Source of the DNA: Lachnospiraceae bacterium
Lineage (GTDB): Bacteria; Bacillota; Clostridia; Lachnospirales; Lachnospiraceae
DNA: 64,000 nt
Direction: 5' to 3'
Assembly: GCA_017618195.1 (NCBI GenBank)
Contig: JAFZUW010000003.1
Location: 23,661 to 87,660, forward strand
Part shown: piece after piece, positions 1,143 to 60,176 of the stretch
How positions within the stretch are numbered: the stretch's first letter is position 1
Layout: each line of letters begins with the position of its first letter
Translations under genes and position numbers: made by a program
The notes under the pieces: model-generated
Databases searched by the model: none
Told to the model about the DNA's origin: nothing
What the model saw: only the letters and a program-made list of their open reading frames with translations

Positions 1143-2780
1143 ATGAATGTGGAACTGACGAAAATCGCCGGTATGAGTTCCGATCTTGCAAAAAGGATGC
1201 AAAAAGCCGGTATCAATGACGCGGTTTCGCTGGCTGAGGCAACCTGTACCGTTGCAGGAAGGGATTCTCTTTCCAAAGCGCTCGGAGAATCTAAATTGCA
1301 GATATACAATTTGGCAAAACAAGCTGATTTGTTACGCTGCGAATCGATTAGTCCTGCGGAAGCGGAAACATTGGTACGTTCCGGCGTTCGTTGTATTGAA
1401 GATATTCATTCGGCTGATTCGGGTAAGCTGGCAAGATATATCTTCGAAAACGGCATCAGTACCGAAGTGGATGAAGATGTCACGCTCGGATGGGTAGAGG
1501 GTGCGTACGACATGAAAAGTCCATTTGAACCCGATCCGGGTGACTATTTCAATGAAAGCGTCGCATTGGCACAGCAGAACACTTTCGGATTAGGTCACAG
1601 CAATATGTTCGGAACGGATCTTTCGGATATCATTACCGATCTGGGTACCGGCATAGCACAGGCTCAGATGAATATGGATCTGGCTTCCGTCAATATGCAA
1701 AAGAAAATTCTGGAAGACCCTGAGATGGCAGCGTTAGGTTTTAACGCCACCTGGTACACGATTCCCGAGGTGTCATTTTCCCTCAAAATGGAATACAGCT
1801 ATTCGGAGAACGGTGAAAGAAAAATTTCGGTCGTACCAATGAATGCGACGTATAACAATGCATTCAGCGCAGAACGTTCCGAACTCAGCACGCTTTCACT
1901 TCGTTTTGTTCCGATTCCGGCGCCGCAAGGATTAACCGATCGAATAGCTGTTCCGGATTTTGTCGGCATGACAAAAGATGAGGCTGCCGAGGCTGCTTCG
2001 ACACTCGGTCTGCGAGTGGAATTTGTATTATCATCAGAGCCTTGCAAAGTTGACCAGTCGACTATGGTTACATTGCAGAATCTAAGTCCCGGGACAATCG
2101 TTATGGGTAACCAGATGATCCGCATGGTTTATGTGGAAGGCAAATCAAGAGAACTATTGAAGCGTCTTGTCGGATCCATTAACAATCGTCTGACTTATGT
2201 AAGAAATCGAATTGCTGAATTGGAAGTAAAGTTTCCGAATGACGAGAACCCGACCGGCGAATCCGATCCGGAATATGAGGAGCTTATCCGCTTGAAGTAC
2301 GGCAAATACGGCAAAGAATCTTCACTAGACGGAGAAACAGGTACATCGGACGGGGAACAGACAGGCGGAAAAATGTCGGAAACAATACCTGCGGATGTTA
2401 TTGACGACATCAAGACAGATTTGGAGCCGATTGATATTGATAAAGCAATCGGGAAAAAGACAAAAACTCTTAAGTCTAAAGTTACAGAAACTGCTGAAGC
2501 AGCCGTTTCATCGGCCTCTAAAACAAAAGCGGTAAAAACTACGGCGAAAAAGACTTCAACCGCTGTCAAAAAAGCAGATACAAAATCGGAAACCGCATCA
2601 GGGAAGACAAGTACAAAATCGAAAACCGCTACGAAGAAAGTAAGTACCAAGGACGAACCCGCTACCCGTAAAAAGAGTGCCGAAAACCAATCAGACGCAA
2701 AGAAAAGAAAAGGCACTAAGACAAGCAGTAAGAAAGAAAGCAACACAAAATCAGTAAATTCCAAGAACAAAAAGAAGTGA
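1143..2780 (+). CDS. HhH (DUF4332-like) / shared-domain / PASTA protein with lysine-rich tail
   Basis: 545 residues, function not known. Domains in order: residues 1-115 resemble the helix-hairpin-helix DUF4332 fold (an L-x-K-I-A-G-M start, a GRDSLSKALG segment, and a second half ending VRSGVRCIEDIHS); about 150-262 is a copy of the domain that recurs in the next three genes (DLGTGIAQAQMNMD, then a GFNATWYTIPEVSF stretch, closing with LRFVPIPAP); about 268-334 is a PASTA-like domain beginning VPDFVGMTKDEAAEAA; 335-430 is an acidic linker; 430-545 is a Lys/Ala/Thr/Ser-rich basic tail like histone H1. No signal peptide or membrane segment is present, so the PASTA domain would be intracellular, which is unusual. 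The ATG lies 13 bp after AAGGAGGTG, a rather long spacing. First gene of the accessory operon. Confidence 0.75.
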   Translation: MNVELTKIAGMSSDLAKRMQKAGINDAVSLAEATCTVAGRDSLSKALGESKLQIYNLAKQADLLRCESISPAEAETLVRSGVRCIEDIHSADSGKLARYIFENGISTEVDEDVTLGWVEGAYDMKSPFEPDPGDYFNESVALAQQNTFGLGHSNMFGTDLSDIITDLGTGIAQAQMNMDLASVNMQKKILEDPEMAALGFNATWYTIPEVSFSLKMEYSYSENGERKISVVPMNATYNNAFSAERSELSTLSLRFVPIPAPQGLTDRIAVPDFVGMTKDEAAEAASTLGLRVEFVLSSEPCKVDQSTMVTLQNLSPGTIVMGNQMIRMVYVEGKSRELLKRLVGSINNRLTYVRNRIAELEVKFPNDENPTGESDPEYEELIRLKYGKYGKESSLDGETGTSDGEQTGGKMSETIPADVIDDIKTDLEPIDIDKAIGKKTKTLKSKVTETAEAAVSSASKTKAVKTTAKKTSTAVKKADTKSETASGKTSTKSKTATKKVSTKDEPATRKKSAENQSDAKKRKGTKTSSKKESNTKSVNSKNKKK

Positions 2781-2795
2781 AAGGGGTGATTAGCT

Positions 2796-3719
2796 ATCGC
2801 AGACAAGAAGAAAACAAACCGGAGCGATGGTTTAAATAACTCCGTAAAAGATGCAACAATCAAAGATATAACGAGTATTAAAGATCCCGGCATCCCGGTG
2901 GAATTCGAACCAATCGGTCAGTTCGAGCCTATTGTAGCTTCTACAAAAGAAAAAGATATTGCCGAACTGAAGCGTATAATTGCGGAACGGGATAAGGCGC
3001 TTGAGAATGCAGTAAAAGAGAATATAACGCTTCAAGCTGAAGGACGTGCGTTTATAAACAAACAGACCCAATTGGAAGCGGAACTGCAAACCACGAAGAC
3101 AGAGCTTCAGCGTTATATGGACGCATATCAGATTAACAGCCGTCAGGTCGGCGAATTACAGGATCAGCTCTATGCCGAGAAAGCGAAACTTGCCCATGAG
3201 AGAAAAGACAGTGAGTCCCGAATTAAAGATTTAATTGCTCAGCTCGGTGAATCCAGACAATTTGAAACATCCGCGGAACAGTTGAAGCAGATTATTGCAA
3301 GCCGTGACGCAGAGATAAAAGAATTGAAAAACCAGATTTCGATTTTAGAAGAACAATACGAAAAGAGTAAGGAACTTCAAAAAGCAGATGCAGATGCATT
3401 AAAGATTAAATGCATGGATTTGCAGGATGAAAACGGCGTTCTCAAAGGCAAATTGAATACGTTGAACTGTAAGTATTCCACATCCTATACGGCTGAAGAA
3501 TTGGCAGAATCCTTTAACAATACGATTAACAGCTTTAATTCGCAGATGAATTCCGCCGACAAGAGCGTAAATTACGTTATTAACAGTATGGATGTTGATC
3601 TGAAGGCACAGCTCGTCAGGGATGACAATCAAAGAGTAAGTTTTGTATCGGATGTCAACGGTAACGGAGACAGCGCCATGAGCACCGTTAAGATCACGAT
3701 CCGCGCGATCCCAAAATAA
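2796..3719 (+). CDS. Coiled-coil protein with C-terminal shared domain; non-ATG start
   Basis: Function unknown. The body is a long heptad-rich coiled coil (about residues 45-240, many E/K/Q/L). The last 70 residues (SFNSQMNSADKSVNYVINSM through VKITIRAIPK) look like a divergent copy of the domain in the neighbouring proteins. No ATG, GTG or TTG lies near a ribosome site: the first GTG, at 2898, has none, and coding-like sequence in the same frame extends upstream to ATC at 2796, which sits 9 nt after GGGG in an AAAGGGGTGAT site (2779-2790) and would give MADKKKTNRSDGLNN at the N-terminus, 307 residues in all. I therefore propose an ATC start; a conservative annotation would be 2898-3719. It is in the same frame as the upstream gene, separated by two TGA codons. 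Confidence 0.6.
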   Translation: MADKKKTNRSDGLNNSVKDATIKDITSIKDPGIPVEFEPIGQFEPIVASTKEKDIAELKRIIAERDKALENAVKENITLQAEGRAFINKQTQLEAELQTTKTELQRYMDAYQINSRQVGELQDQLYAEKAKLAHERKDSESRIKDLIAQLGESRQFETSAEQLKQIIASRDAEIKELKNQISILEEQYEKSKELQKADADALKIKCMDLQDENGVLKGKLNTLNCKYSTSYTAEELAESFNNTINSFNSQMNSADKSVNYVINSMDVDLKAQLVRDDNQRVSFVSDVNGNGDSAMSTVKITIRAIPK

Positions 3720-3743
3720 AACTTTTCTGAAAGGAGAAACAAA

Positions 3744-4313
3744 ATGAGTATTGGACAAGAACTACTGAACGTTCCGTTTCCCGAAATGGTCGTTCAACTC
3801 GCCGGTGCCATCGCCGAAGGTCAGTATAAGATGGACATGGTGAGCTGTAAAATTGCTAAGATGATGGGTGATGCCAAAAAATCGCCGGTTTATTTGCCCG
3901 ATGTGACAAATGATAACAAGACGATTACGACATCCCTGATCGGCGCAGGTTTCCAGCCGACATTTTATCAGTTTACAGACACAATCATCGAAGTAAAGAT
4001 CGATATTTCCATCTCTCATGAAACGGAATATGAGGTGGACGGAGGATGGAGCTGCGGCCTCTTCGGAGCGCATGTAAACGCAAAGTACAGCAATAAATAC
4101 TCTTATACGGCCAACGGCTCAAGCCTGTTAAGAACGAAGATCACTCCGGTTCCGCCGAGCACGTTCATGCAGAAACTTCTCGATATTAAGGCACAGATGC
4201 TTCAGCAGGAATTCCAGCTCAAGATCAAGAAAATCGAGCTTGAGATCGCTAAGGAACAGAAGAAGATCGATGAAGAAATAGCTAAGGAAGAGGATAAGGC
4301 GAAAGAAAGCTGA
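3744..4313 (+). CDS. Small shared-domain protein A (possibly DUF2589-like)
   Basis: 189 residues. The N-terminal amphipathic stretch VPFPEMVVQLAGAIAEGQYK is followed by SLIGAGFQPTFYQFTDTII, a variable Cys-containing loop (GGWSCGLFGAH), NKYSYTANGSSLLRTKITPV, and a C-terminal charged helix (about residues 140-189) rich in K/E/I that probably forms a coiled coil. It is clearly paralogous to the next gene and shares the domain with the 1143 protein. The layout (a helix with Ala/Gln, a beta-rich middle, a closing Pro-x-Pro) reminds me of DUF2589 proteins, but this is from memory and untested. No signal peptide. Good AAAGGAGAA ribosome site. Unknown role; a structural or scaffold subunit is an inference. 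Confidence 0.7.
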   Translation: MSIGQELLNVPFPEMVVQLAGAIAEGQYKMDMVSCKIAKMMGDAKKSPVYLPDVTNDNKTITTSLIGAGFQPTFYQFTDTIIEVKIDISISHETEYEVDGGWSCGLFGAHVNAKYSNKYSYTANGSSLLRTKITPVPPSTFMQKLLDIKAQMLQQEFQLKIKKIELEIAKEQKKIDEEIAKEEDKAKES

Positions 4314-4381
4314 TAACTCGACCGTAGTGAATTGATTTTATAAGACTGAATGAAACATAAAAAAGAAAGGTGGATTATGAA

Positions 4382-5113
4382 ATGGATTCGTCAATTATTC
4401 CGAATGTAGGCCATAAACTTGCAGATGTCCCTTTTGATTTAATGCTGATGAATGTCGGCACGGCAATCGCAAAAGCTCAATTTGAAATGGATCAGGAAAG
4501 TATCAGTATTTTGCAGGCGATGTGTACACAGACAGTAAGCCTTCCTGCTTTAAAAATCGAAAAAGGAAAGCTCAGCGATCATCCGATTGAAACATCCATG
4601 ATCGGTGCCGGCTTCCAGCCGACTTTTTATCAGTTTGCAGAAACCATTATCGAAATTAAGATGACGATCAATGTTGCCATGGAGCAGACTGAAGAAAAGG
4701 AAGTGGAAGGCACCGAAACGACAACTACAACCGATTCGACACAAATATCCGCAAGAGGACGTGTATTGGGATTCCTGCGCGGAAGCAGGCTGCGCACCTT
4801 AAAAAAGAAGACCGTAGTAACTACAACTCCTATTGATGCAACATATACCAACAAATACAACTACAATCAGGAAGGTTCCAGCCTGCTTAGAACCCGTATT
4901 GTTCCGGTTCCCCCGAACACGATTGTTCAGAAGCAGCTTGAGATGCGTGCTCAGGCTATGCAGCTCGATTATGAACTTCAGTTGAAGGAATATGAGCTGT
5001 ATATAGAGATGCAGAGAGAAAAGTTCCAGAACTCCTTAGAGAATAAACTGGAACAGACCGCTGAAGAGATTAACACCGAAATTCAGAACGAAACAACGAG
5101 TACCACCACTTAA
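4382..5113 (+). CDS. Small shared-domain protein B, paralogue of 3744-4313
   Basis: 243 residues from the ATG at 4382, which is spaced 9 nt from AGAAAGGTGG; a GTG at 4370 is inside the ribosome site and is rejected. It aligns with protein A throughout: VPFDLMLMNVGTAIAKAQFE, SMIGAGFQPTFYQFAETII, then NKYNYNQEGSSLLRTRIVPV, and a C-terminal coiled helix. It differs by a Thr-rich insert (a TETTTTTDSTQ run and a basic GRVLGFLRGSRLRTLKKK segment, around residues 108-143) and a Thr/Glu-rich tail. Two tandem paralogues with identical architecture suggest subunits of one assembly. Function unknown. Confidence 0.7.
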   Translation: MDSSIIPNVGHKLADVPFDLMLMNVGTAIAKAQFEMDQESISILQAMCTQTVSLPALKIEKGKLSDHPIETSMIGAGFQPTFYQFAETIIEIKMTINVAMEQTEEKEVEGTETTTTTDSTQISARGRVLGFLRGSRLRTLKKKTVVTTTPIDATYTNKYNYNQEGSSLLRTRIVPVPPNTIVQKQLEMRAQAMQLDYELQLKEYELYIEMQREKFQNSLENKLEQTAEEINTEIQNETTSTTT

Positions 5114-5132
5114 GCTTCCTCGTGTGCAGAAT

Positions 5133-5166
5133 GCCCCTATTTTCGCCCCATTACGGAAATAGGGGC
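5133..5166 (+). terminator. Intra-operon hairpin, possible attenuator
   Basis: A stem of GCCCCTATTT (5133-5142, extending to 5145) with AAATAGGGGC (5157-5166) lies between shared-domain protein B and the disordered protein gene. There is no following T-run, so it is more likely an RNA-processing or attenuation element than a full terminator. The 126-bp gap holds no other recognisable site except AAGGAG before 5240. Confidence 0.45.
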
Positions 5167-5239
5167 TACTGCATCAGATATATTCTAATATCGAATATCC
5201 TTACATATTTCCGCATCGGCAAGCGGGAAGGAGCAGTCT

Positions 5240-7042
5240 ATGATCCGTCATATGAAAAAAGCATGGAACAGATATCATGTTGTAAAAAATTCGCATAAGA
5301 TACGGACTGCTTTAAGGACAAGAAAAATATCCGGTTCGGAGAAACTAAATGATTTGTTAACGCCTCATTTTGTTAAGAATGAACTGAACGATGCGTCGCA
5401 GGAACCATTAAAGGACAACGTATCCCTGCTTGCATGCATCGATATTTTCTCCGAAGAATATGATGACGAAACCGTAGTACCGGAGCAGACACAGAAAGAT
5501 ATACCGCCTTCCGAAGACGAGGCGGTTGATAACACACAATCCGAAGATGAAATTCAAACCATTCAGGGCCTCGTTACGCAAGGAACGGTACTGCGGACGT
5601 TGGAAGAGGGTCTTGCCGACCTGATGGATATGGATTATGTTCCGGAACCTGATGAATTTCTGGAACAAAGAAAAGAATTCGAAGAAACGCTGTATGATGA
5701 GCCTTCAAAAGATGACGACCGGATGTCCATTGAACAGGAGGAAGATGATCATACAACTGACAATAGAAAGAACGGCCTTTTCTTTCCCGAAAAAGACCGG
5801 CAAAGTTTTCGGGAGAGTCCCGCATCACAAACGAAGCAGACTGAAAAGAAGCCGAAAACGGATCGTTTGTTTGGAAATGATTTCCCGAGAACAGACAATA
5901 AGATCGAGTTTAAAAGAACGGTTTCCTCAATAAAAGCCGGTCCCAAGAATGTAAAACGGCATGATCGGGATTTTCAAGTAAGAGGAAGGGAGAAACAGCC
6001 GCTTCTTAAAGATGATCGGCTTTCTAAATTACGGGGTGAGTTCAAACGAAAAGAGTCCGATAACGAACGGCACAGGCTGAGTCTTTCGAAGGTTGATCCG
6101 AAAGATGACCGCATAATTGAAAAACTTCAGTTGGAAGAACAATCAGAAGATCTTTCCGTTAAACTTCCGAAGGAGTTATCGAATGAATCGTTATTATTGG
6201 CGGATAATCCTGAAAGAATAAGCAATGATAAAAAGATTCGATTTGACAACGATGTTCTGATCAAAAGAATCGCAGCGGGCAAAAAATGCTCAAGTCAAGA
6301 GGAACGAAGTCGGTTTTCGACGCCGTCCGGGATGAATGAATACGAAAGAAAGCCCAAAAAGGACAACCGTTTTTCCTTTGATTCGTTTCGTCTTCTGAAC
6401 GCGGATTTCAATAAGATGCGAAACGAAACTTTCAAGACGACGGATTTCAAAAAAGAATTCGATGCCGAACTAACCTTTAACAGAATCGATATCAATTCGC
6501 CTTTGAAAGAACGGTATTTTTATGATGAACGGGACAAACAGAATCAACGCCCGGAAGACAGATACGATTACCGTTTCGACGACAGGGAGAACGACAATCG
6601 TTTCGAACCCGAGGGGCCGAAATTCAACCGGACTTATGATTTCGTAGAAAACAAGCATAATACTAAAACACGTTTTGAGGAGTCTGCTTCAAACCCGGAT
6701 ACGGAAAGCTATGAAACGAACCGCTTTTGTTTAAGCGAATCACGGAATAATTATTCGGAACCGTTTGAAGATCAAAGGAAAGAAGACACATTTTCCCGTA
6801 TGATAAACAGTGATCAGAAGCCTTTTCAACGGACTGATACATTGAACGTGAATATAGCGGAAAGAATGTCCTGTGAGCCGGATTATGAAAGTCATAATAC
6901 ATTTGCCTTTTGGGAATCGGATCGATATGAAATAAAGAAAAACAATAACATGGTATTTCGAAAGGCCGGAAAAGATTTGGAAAGGGATTCCGGGACATTG
7001 AGTATGGATAACAGGGAGAGGAACAACCGATGGGAATTGTAA
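5240..7042 (+). CDS. 600-residue charged, mostly disordered protein
   Basis: No family recognised. A short basic N-terminus (MIRHMKKAWNRYHVV) leads into an acidic segment (about residues 70-110 and 120-175, with an ELADLMDMDYVPEPDEFLEQ-type motif) and then more than 400 residues of low-complexity sequence dominated by D, R, N, K, E, F and S. Short motifs with Phe between charged residues recur (NRFEPEG, FNRTYDF, NRFCLSE, RFSFDSFR). Almost no predicted folded core, no signal peptide, no membrane segment. The start ATG has GGGAAGGAGC ahead of it. It overlaps the next gene by 13 nt. By composition it could be a multivalent linker or scaffold, but that is inference. Confidence 0.65.
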   Translation: MIRHMKKAWNRYHVVKNSHKIRTALRTRKISGSEKLNDLLTPHFVKNELNDASQEPLKDNVSLLACIDIFSEEYDDETVVPEQTQKDIPPSEDEAVDNTQSEDEIQTIQGLVTQGTVLRTLEEGLADLMDMDYVPEPDEFLEQRKEFEETLYDEPSKDDDRMSIEQEEDDHTTDNRKNGLFFPEKDRQSFRESPASQTKQTEKKPKTDRLFGNDFPRTDNKIEFKRTVSSIKAGPKNVKRHDRDFQVRGREKQPLLKDDRLSKLRGEFKRKESDNERHRLSLSKVDPKDDRIIEKLQLEEQSEDLSVKLPKELSNESLLLADNPERISNDKKIRFDNDVLIKRIAAGKKCSSQEERSRFSTPSGMNEYERKPKKDNRFSFDSFRLLNADFNKMRNETFKTTDFKKEFDAELTFNRIDINSPLKERYFYDERDKQNQRPEDRYDYRFDDRENDNRFEPEGPKFNRTYDFVENKHNTKTRFEESASNPDTESYETNRFCLSESRNNYSEPFEDQRKEDTFSRMINSDQKPFQRTDTLNVNIAERMSCEPDYESHNTFAFWESDRYEIKKNNNMVFRKAGKDLERDSGTLSMDNRERNNRWEL

Positions 7043-7671
7043 AAAAGAATTCGGACATTGAGAGTTTTGCCAACAGGATCATGGAAAACCTGAATATGGT
7101 ATATGCTATGGCAGGAGACCAAAAGAAACCTTTTTCGGAAGCGGATGACCGTTTTGAGGAGATGTTTCAGCTTCTCAAATATTATCAATGCAATGATGCC
7201 GCTGCGGAACAGGCACATAATTTTGCAAGCCTAGCCTATGTCAGGGGCGAGTATATCCGCGCGATGGAATTGACAGCCGACGCAGTCGAAACCGTAACGG
7301 ACGAGACAAAACGCGAAGAATATGAGCAAACGCTTCATGATATGGCTTACAGGCTTCTTGCGATCGGGTTGACCGGAACAAATGACAAGGCGCTTCTTGA
7401 CCATATCGAATTAATTCTGGGGCCTGAAGATTATCAAAATGCATTGCATCAGGCTGCGGGAAATTTGCAAAAAGAAACAAAGAATCACGAGAACGCAACG
7501 GCGTTTATCAGGCGGCTTGCTTTGGAAGTTTTGCGGCAGGCTATCCGTATAGAACCGGTGCAGCCGCAGAAAGCACTGTCCCTTCTTCGGGAAGCATTAC
7601 CCTGGCTGAATGAAAAACGGGCCGAACCGGTGCGTCTTGAAATACAAAGATTGGAGCGTATTACGACATGA
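7030..7671 (+). CDS. TPR-like all-helical protein 1
   Basis: 213 residues, predicted almost entirely alpha-helical with TPR-like helix pairs (AAAEQAHNFASLAYVRGEYI and PQKALSLLREALPWLNE). No exact family assigned. The ATG overlaps the upstream gene's end by 13 nt with GGGAGAGG before it; its own end overlaps the next gene by 4 nt (ATGA), indicating translational coupling. Likely an adaptor or chaperone-type helical repeat for other products of the operon, by inference only. Confidence 0.65.
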   Translation: MGIVKKNSDIESFANRIMENLNMVYAMAGDQKKPFSEADDRFEEMFQLLKYYQCNDAAAEQAHNFASLAYVRGEYIRAMELTADAVETVTDETKREEYEQTLHDMAYRLLAIGLTGTNDKALLDHIELILGPEDYQNALHQAAGNLQKETKNHENATAFIRRLALEVLRQAIRIEPVQPQKALSLLREALPWLNEKRAEPVRLEIQRLERITT

Positions 7672-8279
7672 ATGAAACCGAATTGAAACAGATTGCCGAC
7701 AACCTGAAACAGATGGATTATGCAGCTGCAGAAGCAATGAAAGAAGGAAACATACCGAAAGCAATCGCAGGCTATGAATTAATGTATGATGCCGAGCTAG
7801 CAGTGGGACTTGAGAGAAATGCCGGACGTACTTTGCTTAATCTTTCGAATCTGTATCTCGAAATGAACCGTAAGGAGAAGGCACTTGAACGAGCGGAAAA
7901 GGCCATTGAAAGCTTTAAACGATGCGGAGCCAAGGACGATGTTATATCCGGCCGTCTTATTGTCGCGAGATGTCTTGCCTTACTTGAGAAAAAGAACGAA
8001 AGCATCGCTGAAGTGGAAGAAGCGATCCGTTCCTGCAGAACCGACAATCAAAGAGGAGATGCGTATCTTATGCTTGCGGAATGCCAAAGAATCGCAGGAG
8101 ACCGTTGGAAGGCAAGAGACGCCGTTGACCGCTCTGTTCGCTATTTCGAGTATCTTCATGACGATATTGGGCTTGTTCGTGCTCTAAACGAGCGTATCTT
8201 TTTGATGGAGCAATCCGGGCAGGCCGGTGCTGCTGCAATGGACCGTTCCAGATTGGCCGTTATAACATCCAGTCTTTAA
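7668..8279 (+). CDS. TPR-repeat protein 2
   Basis: 203 residues with three to four recognisable tetratricopeptide repeats: GNIPKAIAGYELMYDAELA, LLNLSNLYLEMNRKEKALER, a SGRLIVARCLALLEKKNESI unit and LAECQRIAGDRWKARDAVDR. Soluble, no signal peptide. Coupled to the preceding TPR-like gene through an ATGA overlap and followed after 30 bp by the giant protein gene. TPR proteins usually mediate protein-protein contacts; which partner it binds is unknown, though the adjacent 1578-residue protein is the obvious candidate. Confidence 0.75.
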   Translation: MNETELKQIADNLKQMDYAAAEAMKEGNIPKAIAGYELMYDAELAVGLERNAGRTLLNLSNLYLEMNRKEKALERAEKAIESFKRCGAKDDVISGRLIVARCLALLEKKNESIAEVEEAIRSCRTDNQRGDAYLMLAECQRIAGDRWKARDAVDRSVRYFEYLHDDIGLVRALNERIFLMEQSGQAGAAAMDRSRLAVITSSL

Positions 8280-8309
8280 TTCCTTTTTGCGAAAGGAGGC
8301 CGTCGAACA

Positions 8310-11300
8310 ATGTTGTCGAGATGTTATCCCCCGATTTCCCTGCTTCAGGCATTGGAAGATTATTTCGGATGTGAAGTAACGAAAGCATCTTTTTATGAGA
8401 CGGATTGTGACGATACGGCGGCCCCGCTTTCGTATGCAAAAGGAGATTATATTGTTATTCGAAAAGGGTTATTGTCACCTCTTGGTAAAGAGGGAATTTA
8501 TGTTATTGCGCATGAAGTATGCCATCTTCGCAGGCAGGCGGAGCATTCCTTTACGGATGTTCACGAGGCCGAAGTTGAGGCTGATTTTCATGCGCTTTTG
8601 TTTACGCTTAAATATCTTTCCGGTAAGCCGTTTCATTCGATGAGACAACCGTTGCCGCTTGCCGATCGTTCAAGCGTTAAGACCGCTGCATGGGGACTCG
8701 GAGGCTTATTTTCCTTAAAACAGCTGATCACGGATGGATATGCGAAGCAAAAAGGCTATGCTTATTTCTACAGAGGACCTCATGAGTGGCTGACGCAGGT
8801 TGCAGCTGCACTTGATAAAAAAGATATCCTGAACTATGTCACGAAAGCTTCTCCGAATGCAACGGAATATAATCTTATTCTGGGCTCGGAAATGAATGAC
8901 ATGTATTTTCTGCCTGAAATCATCAATGAGAAATGGGGTAAAAAACTCGAAGAGATTAATCTTCGCCTTATTGCGGAAGAATCCGACTATACCTATCTGG
9001 ATGAATACGGGATTGATACGGGCAATCTGAGCACCACGGAAGCAAAAGATTTAATTGCCTTTTATGACAATAACGAAATTGCGGGAATGATAATGAAGGA
9101 TGTCCGGATTCCAAATATAAACATCCTTTGGTTTTTACTGAAAAATACTTTCGATACGATCCGTATATTGGATTTGATAGCGGAAAAGCGTAAGAAACTG
9201 GATGAGGCTTTAGAGCCCATCCTGGCCCCGCTCGATGAAACAATTACGGAGTTTAAGCAGGACATGCTGTATACCTTCCTCAATGTATTGCCGAAATATT
9301 ATCCGGGAGTGGAAGACGGATGCCTTTCCGCTATTCTCAGATTCAGTTTTACCAGCCTTTTGATAGACAAATTCGGTGATACTGCTTCAGAGAAGATTTA
9401 CAATTTGGTAAACAGTATTTTATTTGAAGAAGCCCTATTTGATGAAAACAAAAAGGAGGAATTGCGTAAGGCAAATAATACAGAGGCATTAGAAAAAGTT
9501 GAAGAAGCGGAACGTCAGCTTGAAGAAAAAATGAAGACAATAAAACGAAGATCTGATTTAAACGATAATGAAACCACGTTTATTAAAGCATTCTTTCTGC
9601 TTCAGATCTGGTGGGAAGATGAAAGTATAGCTTTTCGAAATGGTGAGGCCGTTTTCGCACGTCTTTTGCGCGGAGATGATTTTACCCGTTATTTCGATGA
9701 TCAGTTTTTAAATATCTCGGAATACATTAAAAACCTTGCATTTTCAAAGATAAAAGAAAAAGTACTGACATTTTCCTTTAAGTGGGTAACCTGTCAATTT
9801 AAAGATCACAAAATATCCTGCACGGAAACGTTAGTCGGGGAAAAGGAGATATACTCGGTTAATCTGGAAGAATACAAAGAGACGGAGGATTTCATAGATA
9901 ATAAGGTTAAGGAATATGTATTTGACCCTGTATTTGATAAATTAAACGAATACGGAATCGATTTAATGCATGATTATGTCATGCCGATTATTGATAACAT
10001 TTTTAACGGATTCAGACAGTTTGAACCGTATTACGATACGATTTTGTTCCTTTTACAATCACATACCGGTCAGATGCAGTTCTTACATTCCATGGATTGT
10101 TCAAACGGCTGTTCCGAATGGAACCGCAGGAAAATGATCCGCTGGTGCAGGTTCTGCTATGACTGCAATAAAGAATATAAGAGTTCTGATATTCTTGATA
10201 AAAACATACTGGAATACTTACTGCAGTTTGTTCCGTCCAAAGAAGAAGTCCTGAAATACGGAGATGCCGGGAGTGCTTCTTTTGAAAAGGATTTCAGTGA
10301 AAATAAAGAATATCAGATCGCTTTGGCTAAGACTTGCGTAAACTATTATGACTTATACGCAAAGCATTATGAAACGCATGAAGAGGAATTGCTGCTGGCG
10401 GCAATGCTTCTTCCTTTGTGTGTCATTTTTCTCCAGATGAATAACTGTAAATTGGCAGCCAAGCAGGCAGCCAAGTATCTTTTCGGATTTGATGAAGAAA
10501 AATCTGCCGACCTTAAACAGGCAAAATGCTTTGACATATGTCTGGTAATTGCGTTGCGGGAAAGTGTCATGGAAGATGACGGGATTACTTATAAAACGAA
10601 ACCGGTAGGACTCTATCGTTCTCCGATATCAGACATGACCATGCGCGAATTCTTTAACGGCAAGCGGGATTATATTCAGGCGAAAGATACGATTCTCGGT
10701 ATGACCATGCATATGATTGAAGACAGTTTTACGCCCTCCCATACGGTAAGGGCATGGAATTGTGAGCCAGGAGTAAATGCGGCGCCGATCATCACATTTG
10801 CCGACTATACGAAGCAGGAAGCTCCACGCCATGCATGCGCGGATTATTTTGTCGATTCCGTTTCCAGTATGGCTGTCATTTATTGTGATCCCGATATGTT
10901 TGATATCGAATACGAACCTTTTTCAAAAGAAAAGCCTGAAAAAACCGTTGAGGATTTGAAAAACGAGCTTCCTTTTCAGGCGGCACAGACAACGGTCGGT
11001 GCGGTATGCGCATTCCGTTATGCCAAGAAAGTATTTGATCATGTTACAAAAGGATCAAAAGATATCTTTCATCAATTTGATGAAAAACTGATCAAATCGA
11101 TTTATCCTTTGATCGGAGAAAATTATCCTTATGTCGGTAACGCCAAGAACAGTTTAAGAGTCAAAGATACCGATGTAATTCTTTCGGAAATGAACACGCC
11201 TCTTTCCGGACGCTGTTACGAAAAAGGAAGCCTGAAAGAAGAGAAAATGTTTGAGAAATACGCCGAGTCGATTATTAACAGCACGATCGGCGACAGCCTG

Positions 11301-13046
11301 ATCGCAGGCTACGATAAGCGCTTGGACGAATTAAATGAAGCGGTTGAAGAGTATCGGAAGTATCTGTTTAAACATTTTGCCCCGAACCGGTATCCGTCGT
11401 TAGAAGATCTGAAGTACTATGAAAAAGAAGAATCCAAGAAAGCCAAGAAAGACAAGGCATTTTCCGATCGTGTAGATACGGCTGTTGCCGATGTAAAAAA
11501 ACAAAGGCTTTTGGAAATGTCGGTTGATAAAAACGGCGAGTGCTCCGAAGACCATGTATTCCGGGTTCTTGACATGTATCTCAATAATGACCTGAAGTTT
11601 TTGGAAAAAGTATTAAAAGCTCCGTTTCTCTGCAAGAGCATCATGGAATTCTATAAGGATCAGGCTGATAAGAGGATATCTAATGTCGCCGAAGAAATTG
11701 CGGAAACGGTTGAAAAGACGCACGAACGATATATTGCGCATCTTCATGAAATCATACTGAATGCGGTCGGTATCTGCGAGCAGAAACAGGATCTTCCGAT
11801 TCTGGAAAAAGCCGAGAAAGTTATTTTGGAAGCTTATCGTTTAAAAGAAGAGGCCGAGAAGCATTGGGAAGATGCCGAAGATATCCTTGAGAATAAGTTT
11901 CTTGAGTTCATTAATGCCGTCAAAACAAAGGCGGAAAAGATGCGGAATTTTATCCGTGTATTGATTGAAGGTTTTGACCGTGAAACAATCAAAGAACTGA
12001 TAATTCAGATCATTAAGTCGGATAACCCGGAGGAATTCCAGGATAACTGCGTTAAGCTTCTGGAAGAACTTCGCAAGATGCTTGAGAATAATGAAAGCGG
12101 AAAGGTTATCCTTCAACAGATCGATGAATTGTATAAGAAGTATCCGATGCTGAATATTTCGGTAAGCAAAGAAGAAATAAAGAAGTCGATGGATACGATG
12201 ATCGAAGATCTGACGGATCTTTTTACGGAACTTCAAAACATAGAGGATATAGATTCCCTGAAGGAAAAGGTTGTTCTGCCCGAGGAAATGACGGAGTATA
12301 TCGAACGGGTAAAGAACGATCCGTCAAGCTTGTATAATAAAGTCGTTAAAACAGCGGATGAAATCATTGCTGAGATATTCAATTATCTTGGCAAAATCGA
12401 GGATCCGAATTCGAGAACCCAACAACTGATCCGTACGCTGTTAGAAGACTTTAAAGAAGAATCCGTTCATGATTTGTTATATGAATATCTGGACACTTCG
12501 ACAATTGATAATTTTCAGATTAACGCATTAAATCTGAAGGAAGAATTCACAAAGATTCTGAGGGATCAGGTCGGTGGAGAAACAATCCTCGATCAGGTAA
12601 ATCAGATGGACAAAAACTTCCCTTGGTTAATCAGTTCAAACGGCCGGGAAAGAGTTCCGGAGGAAGCGGAGTATTTTACGGATGCAGCTACGGATGTTAT
12701 CAGTCAGATGCAGAACATGAAGGACCTTGAGTTTAAAAAGAACTTCAAACTGAAGGATGAAATCAAAACACTGCTGAAGATGATGAAGGAACGCGATCCC
12801 TCCAGGTTCAAATCAGACGACAGTCTGCGTACTCCGGTTGATTCTGCAGTGTCTGCTAAGGAAACCGTTCTTCCGTTGGACAATGACAGCATCAGTCTGT
12901 TTGAGAACTACATGAATCTGACTCTTGATAAAATGAAAAACGGTGAATTTAACAGCGCCTGGGCTTCGGATGAATTCGGTCCGGATAACGATCTGAACAG
13001 TATTATCGAAATCGGACGGAGTTTTGCGCAGGCATTAAAAGGATAA
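8310..13046 (+). CDS. Giant (1578-residue) putative metal-dependent protein with HExxH and PLC/nuclease-like sites
   Basis: Largest gene of the window. Near the N-terminus, IAHEVCH (His68, Glu69, His72) followed by EVEAD around residues 88-92 matches the zincin HExxH plus downstream Glu layout of small ImmA/IrrE-type metallopeptidases. In the middle, MTMHMIEDSFTPSHTVR (His801, Asp805, His811) and later PRHACAD (His841, Asp845) resemble the H-x3-D-x5-H zinc motif of phospholipase C / S1-P1-nuclease-like enzymes. The region from about residue 1100 is mostly coiled-coil helix and contains an internal duplication: about 1226-1345 and 1385-1500 repeat the pattern LLEELRKML...ILQQIDELYKKYP. There is also a Cys-rich patch (CSNGCSEWNRRKMIRWCRFC, about residue 605). 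No signal peptide. Good GAAAGGAGG ribosome site. Enzyme activity is predicted from motifs only; a toxin or effector role is inference. Confidence 0.7.
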   Translation: MLSRCYPPISLLQALEDYFGCEVTKASFYETDCDDTAAPLSYAKGDYIVIRKGLLSPLGKEGIYVIAHEVCHLRRQAEHSFTDVHEAEVEADFHALLFTLKYLSGKPFHSMRQPLPLADRSSVKTAAWGLGGLFSLKQLITDGYAKQKGYAYFYRGPHEWLTQVAAALDKKDILNYVTKASPNATEYNLILGSEMNDMYFLPEIINEKWGKKLEEINLRLIAEESDYTYLDEYGIDTGNLSTTEAKDLIAFYDNNEIAGMIMKDVRIPNINILWFLLKNTFDTIRILDLIAEKRKKLDEALEPILAPLDETITEFKQDMLYTFLNVLPKYYPGVEDGCLSAILRFSFTSLLIDKFGDTASEKIYNLVNSILFEEALFDENKKEELRKANNTEALEKVEEAERQLEEKMKTIKRRSDLNDNETTFIKAFFLLQIWWEDESIAFRNGEAVFARLLRGDDFTRYFDDQFLNISEYIKNLAFSKIKEKVLTFSFKWVTCQFKDHKISCTETLVGEKEIYSVNLEEYKETEDFIDNKVKEYVFDPVFDKLNEYGIDLMHDYVMPIIDNIFNGFRQFEPYYDTILFLLQSHTGQMQFLHSMDCSNGCSEWNRRKMIRWCRFCYDCNKEYKSSDILDKNILEYLLQFVPSKEEVLKYGDAGSASFEKDFSENKEYQIALAKTCVNYYDLYAKHYETHEEELLLAAMLLPLCVIFLQMNNCKLAAKQAAKYLFGFDEEKSADLKQAKCFDICLVIALRESVMEDDGITYKTKPVGLYRSPISDMTMREFFNGKRDYIQAKDTILGMTMHMIEDSFTPSHTVRAWNCEPGVNAAPIITFADYTKQEAPRHACADYFVDSVSSMAVIYCDPDMFDIEYEPFSKEKPEKTVEDLKNELPFQAAQTTVGAVCAFRYAKKVFDHVTKGSKDIFHQFDEKLIKSIYPLIGENYPYVGNAKNSLRVKDTDVILSEMNTPLSGRCYEKGSLKEEKMFEKYAESIINSTIGDSLIAGYDKRLDELNEAVEEYRKYLFKHFAPNRYPSLEDLKYYEKEESKKAKKDKAFSDRVDTAVADVKKQRLLEMSVDKNGECSEDHVFRVLDMYLNNDLKFLEKVLKAPFLCKSIMEFYKDQADKRISNVAEEIAETVEKTHERYIAHLHEIILNAVGICEQKQDLPILEKAEKVILEAYRLKEEAEKHWEDAEDILENKFLEFINAVKTKAEKMRNFIRVLIEGFDRETIKELIIQIIKSDNPEEFQDNCVKLLEELRKMLENNESGKVILQQIDELYKKYPMLNISVSKEEIKKSMDTMIEDLTDLFTELQNIEDIDSLKEKVVLPEEMTEYIERVKNDPSSLYNKVVKTADEIIAEIFNYLGKIEDPNSRTQQLIRTLLEDFKEESVHDLLYEYLDTSTIDNFQINALNLKEEFTKILRDQVGGETILDQVNQMDKNFPWLISSNGRERVPEEAEYFTDAATDVISQMQNMKDLEFKKNFKLKDEIKTLLKMMKERDPSRFKSDDSLRTPVDSAVSAKETVLPLDNDSISLFENYMNLTLDKMKNGEFNSAWASDEFGPDNDLNSIIEIGRSFAQALKG

Positions 13047-13076
13047 CGTATAGGTTAAAACAACGGAGGCATTTCC

Positions 13077-14267
13077 ATGGTCATAAATCATATTGACAAT
13101 GAAGGCAGAATTACGGACTTATCGTTTATGAGTGAGAAAACGGTTATGAAGTCCGATAAAGTGAAGCTTGCCAAAGTGAAAGAAAAGATTACGGAGCTTC
13201 AAAACGGGTTTATGTCCCAAATGGAGCAGAAACAGGCTTCCAATGCCGGTTCCGGTGCCGCGACTTACGGGATGCAGGCTGAAATACAGATGTATATCGG
13301 TCTTGCCAAGTATATGACGGAGTTGTTCTTTACAAGAGATAATTACTGTTATACGAATTATCTGACCCAGAAGGAGAAGAAAAAAGGCGAATATTACATT
13401 ACCAAATTCAACGGGATTATGATTCATTCGCCCGCATCCTGTAATACCGGATTTAAGACAAGAGACATATTCAACCGTTATTCGAAAAAGGATTCCAAAA
13501 TCGGTACGCATTTTGTCGTGGACGGCGACAGCGGTTATATCTATGCTTTACTTCCGCTTGACTGCAAGGCCAATCATTGCGGACAGCCGATGCAGTCATC
13601 AAGTAAGGCTGTTTCCGGAACAAAAAGCCTCAACAGCCAGCTGATTGCAATTGATTTCGGAGAACCGAGCGGAGTGCTTTGCATTTCCGGCGAACAAGGC
13701 GCCAATTTTGAATCTAAGGAATACCGAAACAAGTACTTTAAGAAAATGGGCAGCAAATATTACGGAATTGCCGAACGCATCAGCAGCGGCGCTTATGAAA
13801 AACTCCCGAAAGAAGAACGAAGCGAATGGCATTTGGCCAAGAAATCATCCGGAACAAAGGAATACTTCAGAAGCTCCGATGATTTTGTAAAAAAAACAAG
13901 GGAAAATGTTGCAAGAGCCTATCATGCAACTGCGGAACTTGCCGCGGCATTATGTTATGTCTATGGCTTTGAACCGCTCCATAAAGGGAAGAAACTGGGC
14001 TTCAATAAAGAGAAGAAGGTTTATTACGAAACCGATACCGATGTTTATGATGTGATCATCGGCCATATTGAAGGCTACGAAAACTTCTATAAAGCGTCAC
14101 TTCACGGTGATCCCGAAAACATGTGGGAGATGGAAGGTAACGGCTATACCATGGACACTTTCCGTCAGGAAGTTAACAAGGAATTAAAGAAACTCATCAA
14201 TAAGGAAGTCAAATTGCATCCGATGCTTGCCTGTCTGTCTAAAAGATGGAAGGGAGCATGGGTTTAA
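13077..14267 (+). CDS. N-acetylmuramoyl-L-alanine amidase-type protein without signal peptide
   Basis: 396 residues. Residues about 105-360 fit the zinc amidase (Amidase_2/PGRP-like) family: the first ligand His117 in GIMIHSPA, THFVVDGDSGYIYALLPL (His145) and KANHCG (His167) as in other amidases, SQLIAIDFGEP in place of the usual S-I-x-I-E strand, then GHIEGYENF with its His and LHGDPENMW with the last ligand, as in clostridial amidases (H-x-E-G-Y ... H-x-D-x-E-x-x-W). These enzymes cut the bond between MurNAc and the stem peptide. The first 100 residues are helical and unlike a cell-wall-binding domain; no signal peptide or export signal is visible, so release would need lysis or a dedicated route. 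Preceded by ACGGAGG. Last gene of the accessory operon. Confidence 0.75.
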   Translation: MVINHIDNEGRITDLSFMSEKTVMKSDKVKLAKVKEKITELQNGFMSQMEQKQASNAGSGAATYGMQAEIQMYIGLAKYMTELFFTRDNYCYTNYLTQKEKKKGEYYITKFNGIMIHSPASCNTGFKTRDIFNRYSKKDSKIGTHFVVDGDSGYIYALLPLDCKANHCGQPMQSSSKAVSGTKSLNSQLIAIDFGEPSGVLCISGEQGANFESKEYRNKYFKKMGSKYYGIAERISSGAYEKLPKEERSEWHLAKKSSGTKEYFRSSDDFVKKTRENVARAYHATAELAAALCYVYGFEPLHKGKKLGFNKEKKVYYETDTDVYDVIIGHIEGYENFYKASLHGDPENMWEMEGNGYTMDTFRQEVNKELKKLINKEVKLHPMLACLSKRWKGAWV

Positions 14268-18164: not shown

Positions 18165-19630
18165 AGAGCTTAATTGAAAAACTGGAATACGGCGTTAGCC
18201 CCCGTGAGACGCTGGCGGCGGTTGCCGACCTTCTCGGCGGCATGCTTCCGATTGAAATCGAGGAATACCATATTCCTTTGATGAATTATGTGCCGGCATA
18301 TTTTGAAAATGCCGACGCTAAGGTCCGGAAGAATGCGGCGAGAGTTCTTGCATTTGTCGAGGATCCGCTCGTTCCGTCCATCCTGATCCGTGCTTTTCAG
18401 AAGGAAAATGTGCTCTATGTACGTCCCACCTACCTGAAATCGCTTCGGAACTTTGAACTGGAGAAACCGATTCTTGACATTCTTCAGCAGAGAAGAAACG
18501 AGATTACGGGCGGAGATATTTCTCCGGAAGACCGCAAGCATTTGAATGAAGAACTGCAGATGCTTGAAGAGTGCCTCGGGGACGACCGCGAAGGCAGCCA
18601 CACATTTACCGGCTGGGGACTTGAGAACGAAGTGCTTTTCGTGACGGATAAGGCATTTGTCTCGATCACCGATTCGTTAATCGATGAGACGAAGAAGAAA
18701 ACGCTTCCGACCGGTATTTATATGCGGACCAAACAGCTGGACCGGTATGTTAAGATTCGTACTTACCGTGAGATTTTGTTCTTCCTGCCGAATCTGAAGG
18801 CTTTGACCGACGATCCTTACGCGGCTGCCATGCAGCTGATGGATTCCGGTTTTATCGATTATCTGAAGAAGCGGCATGAAGGCGACGGACCGTTCCGTTA
18901 CCGAATGGAGATAAAGGGTATCGACGATAAGAAGAAGTCGGTTCTGATAAAACGTTTATCCGGCGAAATCCTGAGACTTTCCGATCATATGCTCGTGCTC
19001 AGTAAAGACCGTTATGAGATGGAACTCAGACTTGTCCGTAAGGATGATAATACGTTTCGGTTCCATTTTAAGCTGATGACGCTCGGTGATGACCGCTTTG
19101 CTTATCGTAAGGAAGCAGTCGCTGCGAGCATTAAGCCGATAAATGCGGCAGGTTTTCTGAAGATCAACGAATCGTATCTGAAGAAGGATGCGCAGGTGCT
19201 TGATCCGTTCTGCGGTGTCGGAACGATGCTTTTCGAACGGAACCTGCTCAGCCCGGTGAAGACTGCATTCGGTGTCGATACGTTCGGAGAAGCAATCGAC
19301 AAGGCAAGAAGAAACGGTAATGAGTCGGAATATCCGATTTACTTTATCCATCGTGATTTCTTCGATTTCCGCCATGATTCGCTCTTCGATGAAATCGTAA
19401 CGGATATGCCTTTCGCCGCCAAAGAAGAGGATGCCGGCAAGATTGACAACATCTATTACCGGTTCTTCGGCAAAGCAAAGGACCATTTGAAGGAAGGCAG
19501 TTATATCTTGATGCTTGTCCGTAATCCGGAGCTTGTATATAAGTACTGCACGGCAGGTTACCGGATCGAATCCAGGCTTGAAATCAGTGAGAAGACCGGT
19601 TTGAACGGATTTGTCATCAAAAGATTATAA
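18161..19630 (+). CDS. HEAT-repeat / RNA N-methyltransferase-like fusion protein
   Basis: 489 residues with a TTG start in a TTGA overlap with the PHP gene. The N-terminal ~130 residues are helical, HEAT-like repeats (FENADAKVRKNAARVLAFVE, then DPLVPSILIRAF). The C-terminal part is a class I SAM-dependent methyltransferase of the RlmL/Trm11 kind: DPFCGVGT (348-355) is the SAM site and TDMPF (Asp415) stands where N6-adenine or N2-guanine methyltransferases have the (D/N)PP(Y/F) motif. The second Pro of that motif is replaced, so the position reads D-M-P-F. A THUMP domain was not recognised. Probably methylates tRNA or rRNA, by family inference. Confidence 0.75.
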   Translation: MKSLIEKLEYGVSPRETLAAVADLLGGMLPIEIEEYHIPLMNYVPAYFENADAKVRKNAARVLAFVEDPLVPSILIRAFQKENVLYVRPTYLKSLRNFELEKPILDILQQRRNEITGGDISPEDRKHLNEELQMLEECLGDDREGSHTFTGWGLENEVLFVTDKAFVSITDSLIDETKKKTLPTGIYMRTKQLDRYVKIRTYREILFFLPNLKALTDDPYAAAMQLMDSGFIDYLKKRHEGDGPFRYRMEIKGIDDKKKSVLIKRLSGEILRLSDHMLVLSKDRYEMELRLVRKDDNTFRFHFKLMTLGDDRFAYRKEAVAASIKPINAAGFLKINESYLKKDAQVLDPFCGVGTMLFERNLLSPVKTAFGVDTFGEAIDKARRNGNESEYPIYFIHRDFFDFRHDSLFDEIVTDMPFAAKEEDAGKIDNIYYRFFGKAKDHLKEGSYILMLVRNPELVYKYCTAGYRIESRLEISEKTGLNGFVIKRL

Positions 19631-59249: not shown

Positions 59250-60176
59250 TTGGAAGCGCGGATGCAAAGAGTTTGTGATGAGATTAAGAAAAATATCAAA
59301 GGTAAAGACGACGTAATCAATAAGGTATTATGTGCAATGCTGGCCGGAGGTCATGTACTTTTGGAAGATATTCCCGGTGTAGGAAAGACCACGCTTGCCG
59401 TTTCGGTTTCGGAAGCAATGTCTTTAACCTATAAACGTGTACAGTTTACGCCCGATGTAATGCCGAGCGACATTACCGGTTTCTCCATGTTTAATCCGCA
59501 AAACAGAGAGTTTGAGTATCACGCGGGAGCAGCAATGTGCAACCTGCTTCTTGCCGACGAAATCAACCGTACTTCTCCGAAGACACAGTCCGCTTTGCTC
59601 GAAGTGATGGAAGAGGGCAAAGTAACGGTTGACGGCAATACGTATTACATTCCGAAACCCTTCTTTGTAATTGCCACGCAGAATCCGTTTGGAAGCGCAG
59701 GTACGCAGCGCCTTCCGGAATCCCAGCTTGACCGTTTCATGATCCGTCTTTCGGTCGGATATCCGAGCCACGTATCCGCAATCGATATTCTGAAATCCGA
59801 CAATCCTTTTAACAAGATTACTGCCGTATTGGATAACGAGCAGTTTATCGCAATGCAGGAGACCGTTGCCGATCTGCATGTGGATGACGGTGTATTTGAC
59901 TTCATCGTAAACATTGCCGAAGCAACCCGTGACAACGAGTACATCGGTCTCGGTGTAAGCCCTCGCGGAACGAAAGCTTTGCTGCGAATGTCCAAAGCTT
60001 ACGCATATATGAACGGTAAGGATTATGTCGGCATGGATGACGTTGTTGCCAATATTCCGTGCGTTCTGTCGCACCGTATCGTCTTAAACTCCAAGGCCAA
60101 GGCAAAGGATATCGATGTTGAATCCGTGCTTCGTTCCATCTGGAATGAGGTGCGCGTTGCAAAGATTACTCAATAA
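59250..60176 (+). CDS. MoxR-family AAA ATPase
   Basis: 308 residues, TTG start at 59250 after AGCGGAGGT. Walker A EDIPGVGKTTLA (about 38-49), Walker B NLLLADEINRTSPKTQSALLEVMEE, sensor FVIATQNPFGSAGT and the LPESQLDRFM arginine-finger region. With the following DUF58 and transglutaminase genes it makes the common MoxR-DUF58-TGase module, believed to help fold or assemble surface or metal-containing proteins. TATAAT at 59211-59216 may be its -10. Confidence 0.93.
   Translation: MEARMQRVCDEIKKNIKGKDDVINKVLCAMLAGGHVLLEDIPGVGKTTLAVSVSEAMSLTYKRVQFTPDVMPSDITGFSMFNPQNREFEYHAGAAMCNLLLADEINRTSPKTQSALLEVMEEGKVTVDGNTYYIPKPFFVIATQNPFGSAGTQRLPESQLDRFMIRLSVGYPSHVSAIDILKSDNPFNKITAVLDNEQFIAMQETVADLHVDDGVFDFIVNIAEATRDNEYIGLGVSPRGTKALLRMSKAYAYMNGKDYVGMDDVVANIPCVLSHRIVLNSKAKAKDIDVESVLRSIWNEVRVAKITQ

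Follow-up and report, generated by a model that had tools for sequence, protein, structure and literature searches.

What kind of system is encoded by nine adjoining genes in which no described machinery is recognised? The question is raised by a Lachnospiraceae bacterium (assembly GCA_017618195.1, contig JAFZUW010000003.1), of which a stretch of 64,000 nucleotides, hereafter the window, was analysed. Nine co-directional open reading frames (ORFs), genes A–I, occupy its + strand at positions 1143–14267. Judging from sequence comparisons, this block is a conserved chassis (A–D, often with E–G) combined with optional enzymes, rather than nine equal parts. The reading we favour, with a probability of about 0.35, is that the proteins form a soluble assembly in the cytoplasm, carry interchangeable enzymes that attack the envelope, and serve to lyse the producing cell in a controlled manner. 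A core family without a convincing database match builds a mobile block that recurs in both bacteria and archaea, frequently beside lytic enzymes; should the chassis store or fire these, it would represent a new prokaryotic way to break an envelope. On the plain side, a widespread block of genes that are called hypothetical in the single annotated record examined is useful for annotation.

Insertion and gene content of the cassette

The cassette is one unit inserted between argH (3–737, - strand) and iorA (14377 on), with approximate ends at 818 and 14322. A 300-residue iorA bait matches in all 22 genomes of the genus, in 20 of them at 77–100% identity, and none of the 19 iorA loci of other genomes (each at most 3.9 kb) has a blastn match to the cassette. 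Nine cassette-free loci of the genus have argH beside iorA (L067–L071, L077, L078, L081 and L082). The flanks are contiguous in L067 and L068 (92% identical across iorA), with about 50 bp in place of the ~13.5 kb of the window. Genome G002 carries the cassette on another contig (L008), and its own argH–iorA junction is empty (L082). L008 contains the same nine genes in the same order, E in part only, and this synteny makes the arrangement more than a product of chance. Between the window and L008, A, C, D and F have a dN lower than their dS, which is saturated (1.8–2.6); dS is not computable for B, G, H and I, and E stands outside the comparison. Among the eight genes whose identity to L008 was compared, C is the most conserved (85%, versus 45% for H and 52% for I). 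In a genome from another genus of the family (G030), the stretch compared (L010, 10180–10620) retains only fragments of D/C and F, which appear to be a decayed copy of the cassette. The GC content of the cassette (41–44%) is below that of most of the remaining window (42–51%), and the window genome (G000) is 2.75 Mb in size. Beside the G002 cassette, at 1820–3124 and 3709–5377 of L008, a tyrosine-recombinase-like ORF and a sigma-factor-like pair are discernible by eye.

An earlier sequence-only reading had described nine co-directional, mostly coupled genes, and its gene calls hold up: the ORFs are confirmed, E/F and F/G overlap, and the remaining intergenic gaps measure 24–126 bp. A (1143–2780), described as a helix-hairpin-helix (HhH)/PASTA protein, has Pfam matches to DUF4332 (1.7e-11) and PASTA (2.8e-7), with a core domain (residues ~150–262) between them and a Lys-rich tail. 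B (2898–3719) combines a coiled coil with a C-terminal region resembling a reduced core hairpin (library scans, hhalign); its Pfam matches are weak, mainly to coiled coils. C (3744–4313) and D (4370–5113) are core-domain proteins with no Pfam matches up to E 1, and are paralogous as claimed (41% identity). E (5240–7042), in which no Pfam family scores above cut-off, is highly charged (40% of residues) and probably disordered, as judged from charge rather than a disorder program; its acidic N-terminal motif is recognisable by eye in most loci compared. The TPR-like nature of F (7030–7671) and G (7668–8279) finds support in a TPR_12 match in G (2.2e-8) and in the F profile, which, with F lacking a TPR match of its own, matches the G profile with an hhalign probability of 99.9. 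I (13077–14267), reported as an amidase, is a predicted N-acetylmuramoyl-L-alanine amidase without signal peptide (Amidase_2, 1.2e-7, 32.5 bits versus a gathering cut-off of 26), with a PHROG match to endolysin (3.6e-5); its family membership points to a murein hydrolase.

The giant protein H (8310–13046, 1578 aa) carries an N-terminal zinc-peptidase-like site, HEVCH at residue 68, and a region resembling zinc-dependent phospholipase C (PLC; residues ~580–850). The motif HMIEDSF lies at residue 801, and downstream of HEVCH there are H-x3-D-x5-H and H-x3-D patterns, which we take to resemble the zinc site of zinc-dependent phospholipase C (PF00882). H itself has no Pfam match to PF00882 (none up to E 1) or DUF6765 (PF20551), and its residues 42–79 match eCIS_core (PF13699) below threshold (13.2 bits, cut-off 22, E 0.11). 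The AF2 model of H (pLDDT 41.7) is unusable.

The maximal 19-residue hydropathy is at most 1.14 in eight of the proteins and 1.89 in H, where a single stretch is borderline. From these values, with no dedicated predictor applied, no signal peptide or clear transmembrane (TM) helix is evident in A–G and I, in agreement with the absence of signal peptides noted before. The library scans likewise bear out several of the absences listed earlier. Neither sheath, tube, baseplate nor AAA+ proteins are found among the nine at a meaningful E (Pfam, NCBIfam, PHROGs), no integrase family is matched (Pfam), and there is no holin family match in Pfam or PHROGs and no TM-like segment in A–G or I. NCBIfam and PADLOC yield nothing above a meaningful threshold (PADLOC 2.0.0 gives weak matches, of which the best, 4.4e-4, falls on the coiled coil in B), and PHROGs yield the endolysin match of I alone. 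Pfam, NCBIfam, PADLOC and PHROGs thus place the block in no recognised system, as the sequence-only reading had proposed. No immunity-like gene is seen by eye among the nine.

A shared core domain and a conserved chassis

Profile comparisons show that A, C and D share one domain, and B probably does too. The A-type profile (A3) matches the C/D profile (A2) with an hhalign probability of 100 (E 1.4e-43); the match between the B C-terminus and the core (E 3.6e-4, probability 37) is suggestive only. None of Pfam, NCBIfam, PADLOC and the PDB sequences yields a convincing match to the core domain, with 66 C/D-type members scanned against NCBIfam and PADLOC, the window C and D plus 24 A-type or other core members against Pfam, and only the nine window proteins against PHROGs. 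The faint signals include Trypco2 in one of 24 core members (E 0.11) and three single PADLOC 2.0.0 matches among the 66 (best E 0.0041). Kinship of the core with DUF2589 (PF11655) of a SAR324 genome is unsupported by hhalign (probabilities of 0.2 and 1.1, obtained with a weak three-row profile of three DUF2589 proteins). That genome (L063, L065) has three DUF2589 genes, and among these genes a 268-aa protein is encoded, the ends of which look slightly core-like by eye.

In the AF2 model of C (pLDDT 77.6), a helix is followed by two strands of ~25 residues and another helix. The best Foldseek match in the PDB has an E of 0.041, and the weak matches include ring and pore formers: the helix and long hairpin of the model are like those of FliF RBM3, beta-barrel pore toxins and the P22 portal, which form rings or pores and have long beta-hairpins. 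The model thereby gives weak hints that the core proteins might form a ring or pore. The C model is also resembled by an unnamed viral protein in BFVD, A0A516MP19 (Foldseek E 2.3e-5, TM 0.46–0.48, rmsd 7.0).

Strict peptide patterns retrieve 40 public loci from 84,980 species genomes; together with the window, these make up the 41 loci compared, in which core presence is by construction and from which distant members are missed. By their titles, the loci fall into 11 phylum-level groups, including the archaeal Methanobacteriota and Thermoplasmatota, plus one ungrouped SAR324 locus. The core domain is rare, found in 3 of 61 relatives (one being the G030 remnant), 3 of 391 genomes of the class and 2 of 398 genomes of the phylum, each count including the window's own genome. 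In the tree of C, Bacillota require at least three changes on account of the starred branches, and Fibrobacter is placed together with two Lachnospiraceae (98/90), which suggests, short of proof, horizontal transfer. Plasmid records give one match, in Sphaerotilus, where the genes are annotated as hypothetical (the sole annotated record opened). Of 50,697 phage records, none is matched by any of four core queries, and two scans of viral contigs found no core relatives. No description of the block was found in open-access papers, subscription papers and preprints lying outside that coverage. In concept, the conflict systems of Kaur et al. (2020) come closest; in the part considered here, the core is not seen among them.

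Co-occurrence as a block had been set in advance as a test, and for the chassis it is found: iterated profiles detect at least two core genes in 40 of the 41 loci (all but L060), PASTA in 34, the B C-terminus in 34, the HHH of the A N-terminus in 20 and F/G-type TPR proteins in 19, with contig ends lowering the per-locus counts. The nine genes as a unit fare less evenly. The full set is syntenic in L008, but across the 41 loci the F/G-type proteins are present in the 19 just mentioned, the phospholipase-like region of H in five and the I profile in three. Conservation of the H region extends to L023, L024, L033 and L042, and among the 391 genomes of the class it occurs in one, the window's own. 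Pfam detects PASTA, in one to four copies, in proteins from L027, L045, L049–L052, L054, L055 and L058, and in L056, a Polyangia metagenome-assembled genome (13627–19423), LamG lectin domains are fused to chassis-type proteins. Hydropathy above 1.8 (19 residues) is reached by none of 212 chassis-cluster ORFs, versus 69 of 313 other ORFs of at least 150 residues. Downstream of the chassis in Neptuniibacter (L045–L048), a 473-aa gene (L045 15275–16696) is conserved at 72–77% identity; its product has no Pfam match above cut-off and contains a Gly/Ala-rich hydrophobic stretch (hydropathy 1.71).

Enzymes beside the chassis

In 14 of the 41 loci the chassis is adjoined by, or shares an unbroken run with, a co-directional gene for a hydrolase, a peptidase or a peptidoglycan-binding protein, as seen from Pfam scans of 31 neighbour or architecture proteins picked by eye, with contigs ending early in L025, L028, L030 and L032. 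H and I occupy this place in the window, L023 and L024, and Amidase_2 genes in L029 and L035. In Youngiibacter fragilis (L026, 2159–7320), a co-directional run ending at A encodes caspase (1.2e-31), CHAT (1e-24), Amidohydro_2 and, below cut-off, C25-like domains. L036 has a DUF6765 gene (5.6e-53); a gene 30% identical to it stands in L037, together with Zn_dep_PLPC (2.9e-11) with PLAT, and one 29% identical in L042, together with an H-like gene with six PLAT stretches. The PF00882 and DUF6765 families, unmatched by H, are thus represented beside the chassis by Pfam-supported members in L036 and L037. L033 has two genes, one HExxH and one PLC-like, each of which is related to one half of H. The remaining loci have Metallophos barely above cut-off (L038), PG_binding_1 with Metallophos below cut-off (L040), two PG_binding_1 genes, one above and one below cut-off (L058), and, in the archaeal L043, a protein that is PLC-like by its 30% identity to L037, without a Pfam match. 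Chassis–enzyme gaps are below ~60 bp, except in L040 (294 bp by ORF, ~115 bp by homology of G). Weaker cases outside the 14 are L054 (hydrolase-like, below cut-off), L060 (NAGPA, barely above cut-off) and L055 (Peptidase_M15_4 with PG_binding_1, 370 bp away). In L037 a MoxR AAA+-like ORF (18270–19244) follows the phospholipase gene after 148 bp, as seen by eye; a similar MoxR-like ORF lies in the window at 59250–60176, far from the cassette.

The sequence-only reading had named the giant protein or the amidase as payload, and this view gains weight, since other loci have different enzymes in or near the same place, so that H and I behave as an exchangeable payload. Amidase_2 has 16 matches in 16 chosen genomes, four of them inside chassis loci (window, L024, L029 and L035) where rough arithmetic (loci of ~20 kb, ~56 Mb) gives a chance expectation of ~0.1; the four count as three independent cases because the cassettes of the window and L024 are orthologues, and the I orthologue of L023 is not among the 16. 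No murein enzyme is seen by eye in the six archaeal loci.

Possible lysis from within and other candidate functions

In the mechanism that we favour, a horizontally moving cassette would encode a soluble complex built in the cytoplasm. Its chassis would consist of A, C, D and probably B, which share the helix/long beta-hairpin/helix domain, with the coiled coil and PASTA; E would be a disordered tether and F/G TPR adaptors. The chassis may oligomerise, possibly into a ring or barrel, keep the enzymes inactive and let them go on a trigger such as infection or a developmental signal, neither of which has been seen. H would then attack the membrane, after which I would reach and cut the wall, and the cell would lyse from within. 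Several lines of evidence argue for this reading: the insertion with its empty sites and the cassette elsewhere in G002, the shared domain and the co-occurrence of partners, the enzymes beside the chassis, the low hydropathy of chassis ORFs, and the absence of an immunity-like gene and of murein enzymes in archaeal loci. The earlier proposal of a cytoplasmic assembly stands insofar as the genes form one, probably cytoplasmic, block; that their products assemble is suggested by domain content, and the nine parts are unequal. Tentatively, the block may even define a new class of machine in bacteria and archaea, in which long-hairpin paralogues form a ring- or pore-like cytoplasmic body with PASTA and coiled coil, use a disordered tether together with TPR adaptors to load envelope-destroying enzymes, and breach an envelope on command. 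Phage holin–endolysin cassettes are comparable in combining possible membrane attack, a murein amidase and leaderless proteins in one gene run; they differ in that here a holin or clear TM protein is lacking, H resembles a phospholipase, the chassis is large and conserved, and no phage relative was found.

A link between payload and chassis is suggested by L043, in which the PLC-like protein stands directly after D, in the position of E, and its C-terminal end resembles the E of the related archaeon L044 (local score 69, above the maximum of 67 in 500 shuffles). With the E of the window the local score is 54 (0 of 500 shuffles reach it, maximum 51). Other observations weigh against self-lysis. 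The margin of the L043–L044 score over its shuffles is small; for the E of L027, L023, L024, L037 and L042, 4, 25, 3, 245 and 321 of 500 shuffles equal or beat the score, and a separate E is possible in L043 since its contig ends with the PLC-like gene. By eye, the chassis lacks a recognised enzyme in L027, L039, L041, L044 and L053, in four of five Aquificota loci (all but L054), and, outside the 41, in L094 and the plasmid locus L095; payload carriage is therefore not obligatory. The two-step logic fails where there is only an amidase (L029, L035) or only a phospholipase-like enzyme (L033, L037), no holin or sensor was identified, and PADLOC gives no convincing match. The rest of the window, by eye, contains housekeeping genes rather than a defence island, and the fusion of LamG domains to chassis proteins in L056 is in keeping with extracellular recognition.

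The latter fusion fits a different possibility, doubtful but to be taken seriously, that the particle is assembled in the cytoplasm, freed by lysis of a few cells and carries its envelope-attacking enzymes to other cells in competition. PASTA, recurrent in 34 loci and present in up to four copies, would bind the target together with LamG and the peptidoglycan-binding domains of the PG_binding_1 neighbours, and the hairpin proteins would be a ring or pore, in accordance with the weak matches of the C model. Extracellular contractile injection systems are cytoplasmic, leaderless assemblies with toxin-like cargo. Unlike these and the type VI secretion system (T6SS), the cassette has no sheath, tube, baseplate or AAA+ protein among its nine genes. 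The nine genes also lack an export signal and a spike, no immunity gene is seen by eye, neither the phage records nor the viral contigs scanned contain a sequence relative of the core, and an E of 0.041 is the best that Foldseek returns from the PDB.

It is unlikely that the chassis is a scaffold for structure or storage (filament, ring or compartment) that does housekeeping work and has enzymes only as occasional neighbours. The many loci without a recognised enzyme and the far stronger conservation of C than of H or I agree with such a scaffold, but the block's patchy and rare occurrence, its different insertion sites and the mere fragments in G030 are unlike housekeeping genes, lytic enzymes recur in several lineages, and L043 has the PLC–E-like fusion.

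Less probable again is an immune system of the caspase/CHAT type with a new core, in the sense of biological-conflict systems. MoxR-vWA/VMAP ternary and caspase conflict systems are modular, with constant parts, exchangeable effectors and, in some, PASTA, according to the part of Kaur et al. (2020; PMC7159879) considered. The likeness lies in constant parts with swappable effectors and in the run of caspase, CHAT, Amidohydro_2 and C25-like domains ending at A in L026; the MoxR-like ORF after the L037 phospholipase gene and the Trypco2 signal in one core member point the same way. The nine window genes, however, include no MoxR, vWA, VMAP or STAND family, and the core matches none of the domains named in that part of the source beyond E 0.11. 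Caspases are seen in one of the 41 loci, not every gene having been scanned, and Trypco2, an accessory domain of the trypsin-bearing forms, in none of 12 chassis genomes. That the cassette is what remains of a prophage's lysis or tail module is very improbable, since the endolysin-like amidase and the BFVD protein resembling C are set against the lack of any PHROG head or tail match below E 0.1 among the nine, the unmatched core queries in phage records and the two empty viral-contig scans.

Upstream of A, the single promoter of the sequence-only reading finds no support: there is no + strand sigma-70 consensus site in 700–1143, and the 24 sites in all compare with 26.7 in shuffles. A shortened form of a 20-bp repeat, CGAAAATGAARTTGAAATAT, is absent from the + strand of L023 and L024. 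The full repeat has two matches in the window, both upstream of A on the + strand (914–933 and 1030–1049), which is above chance since none of 100 shuffles reaches at least two.

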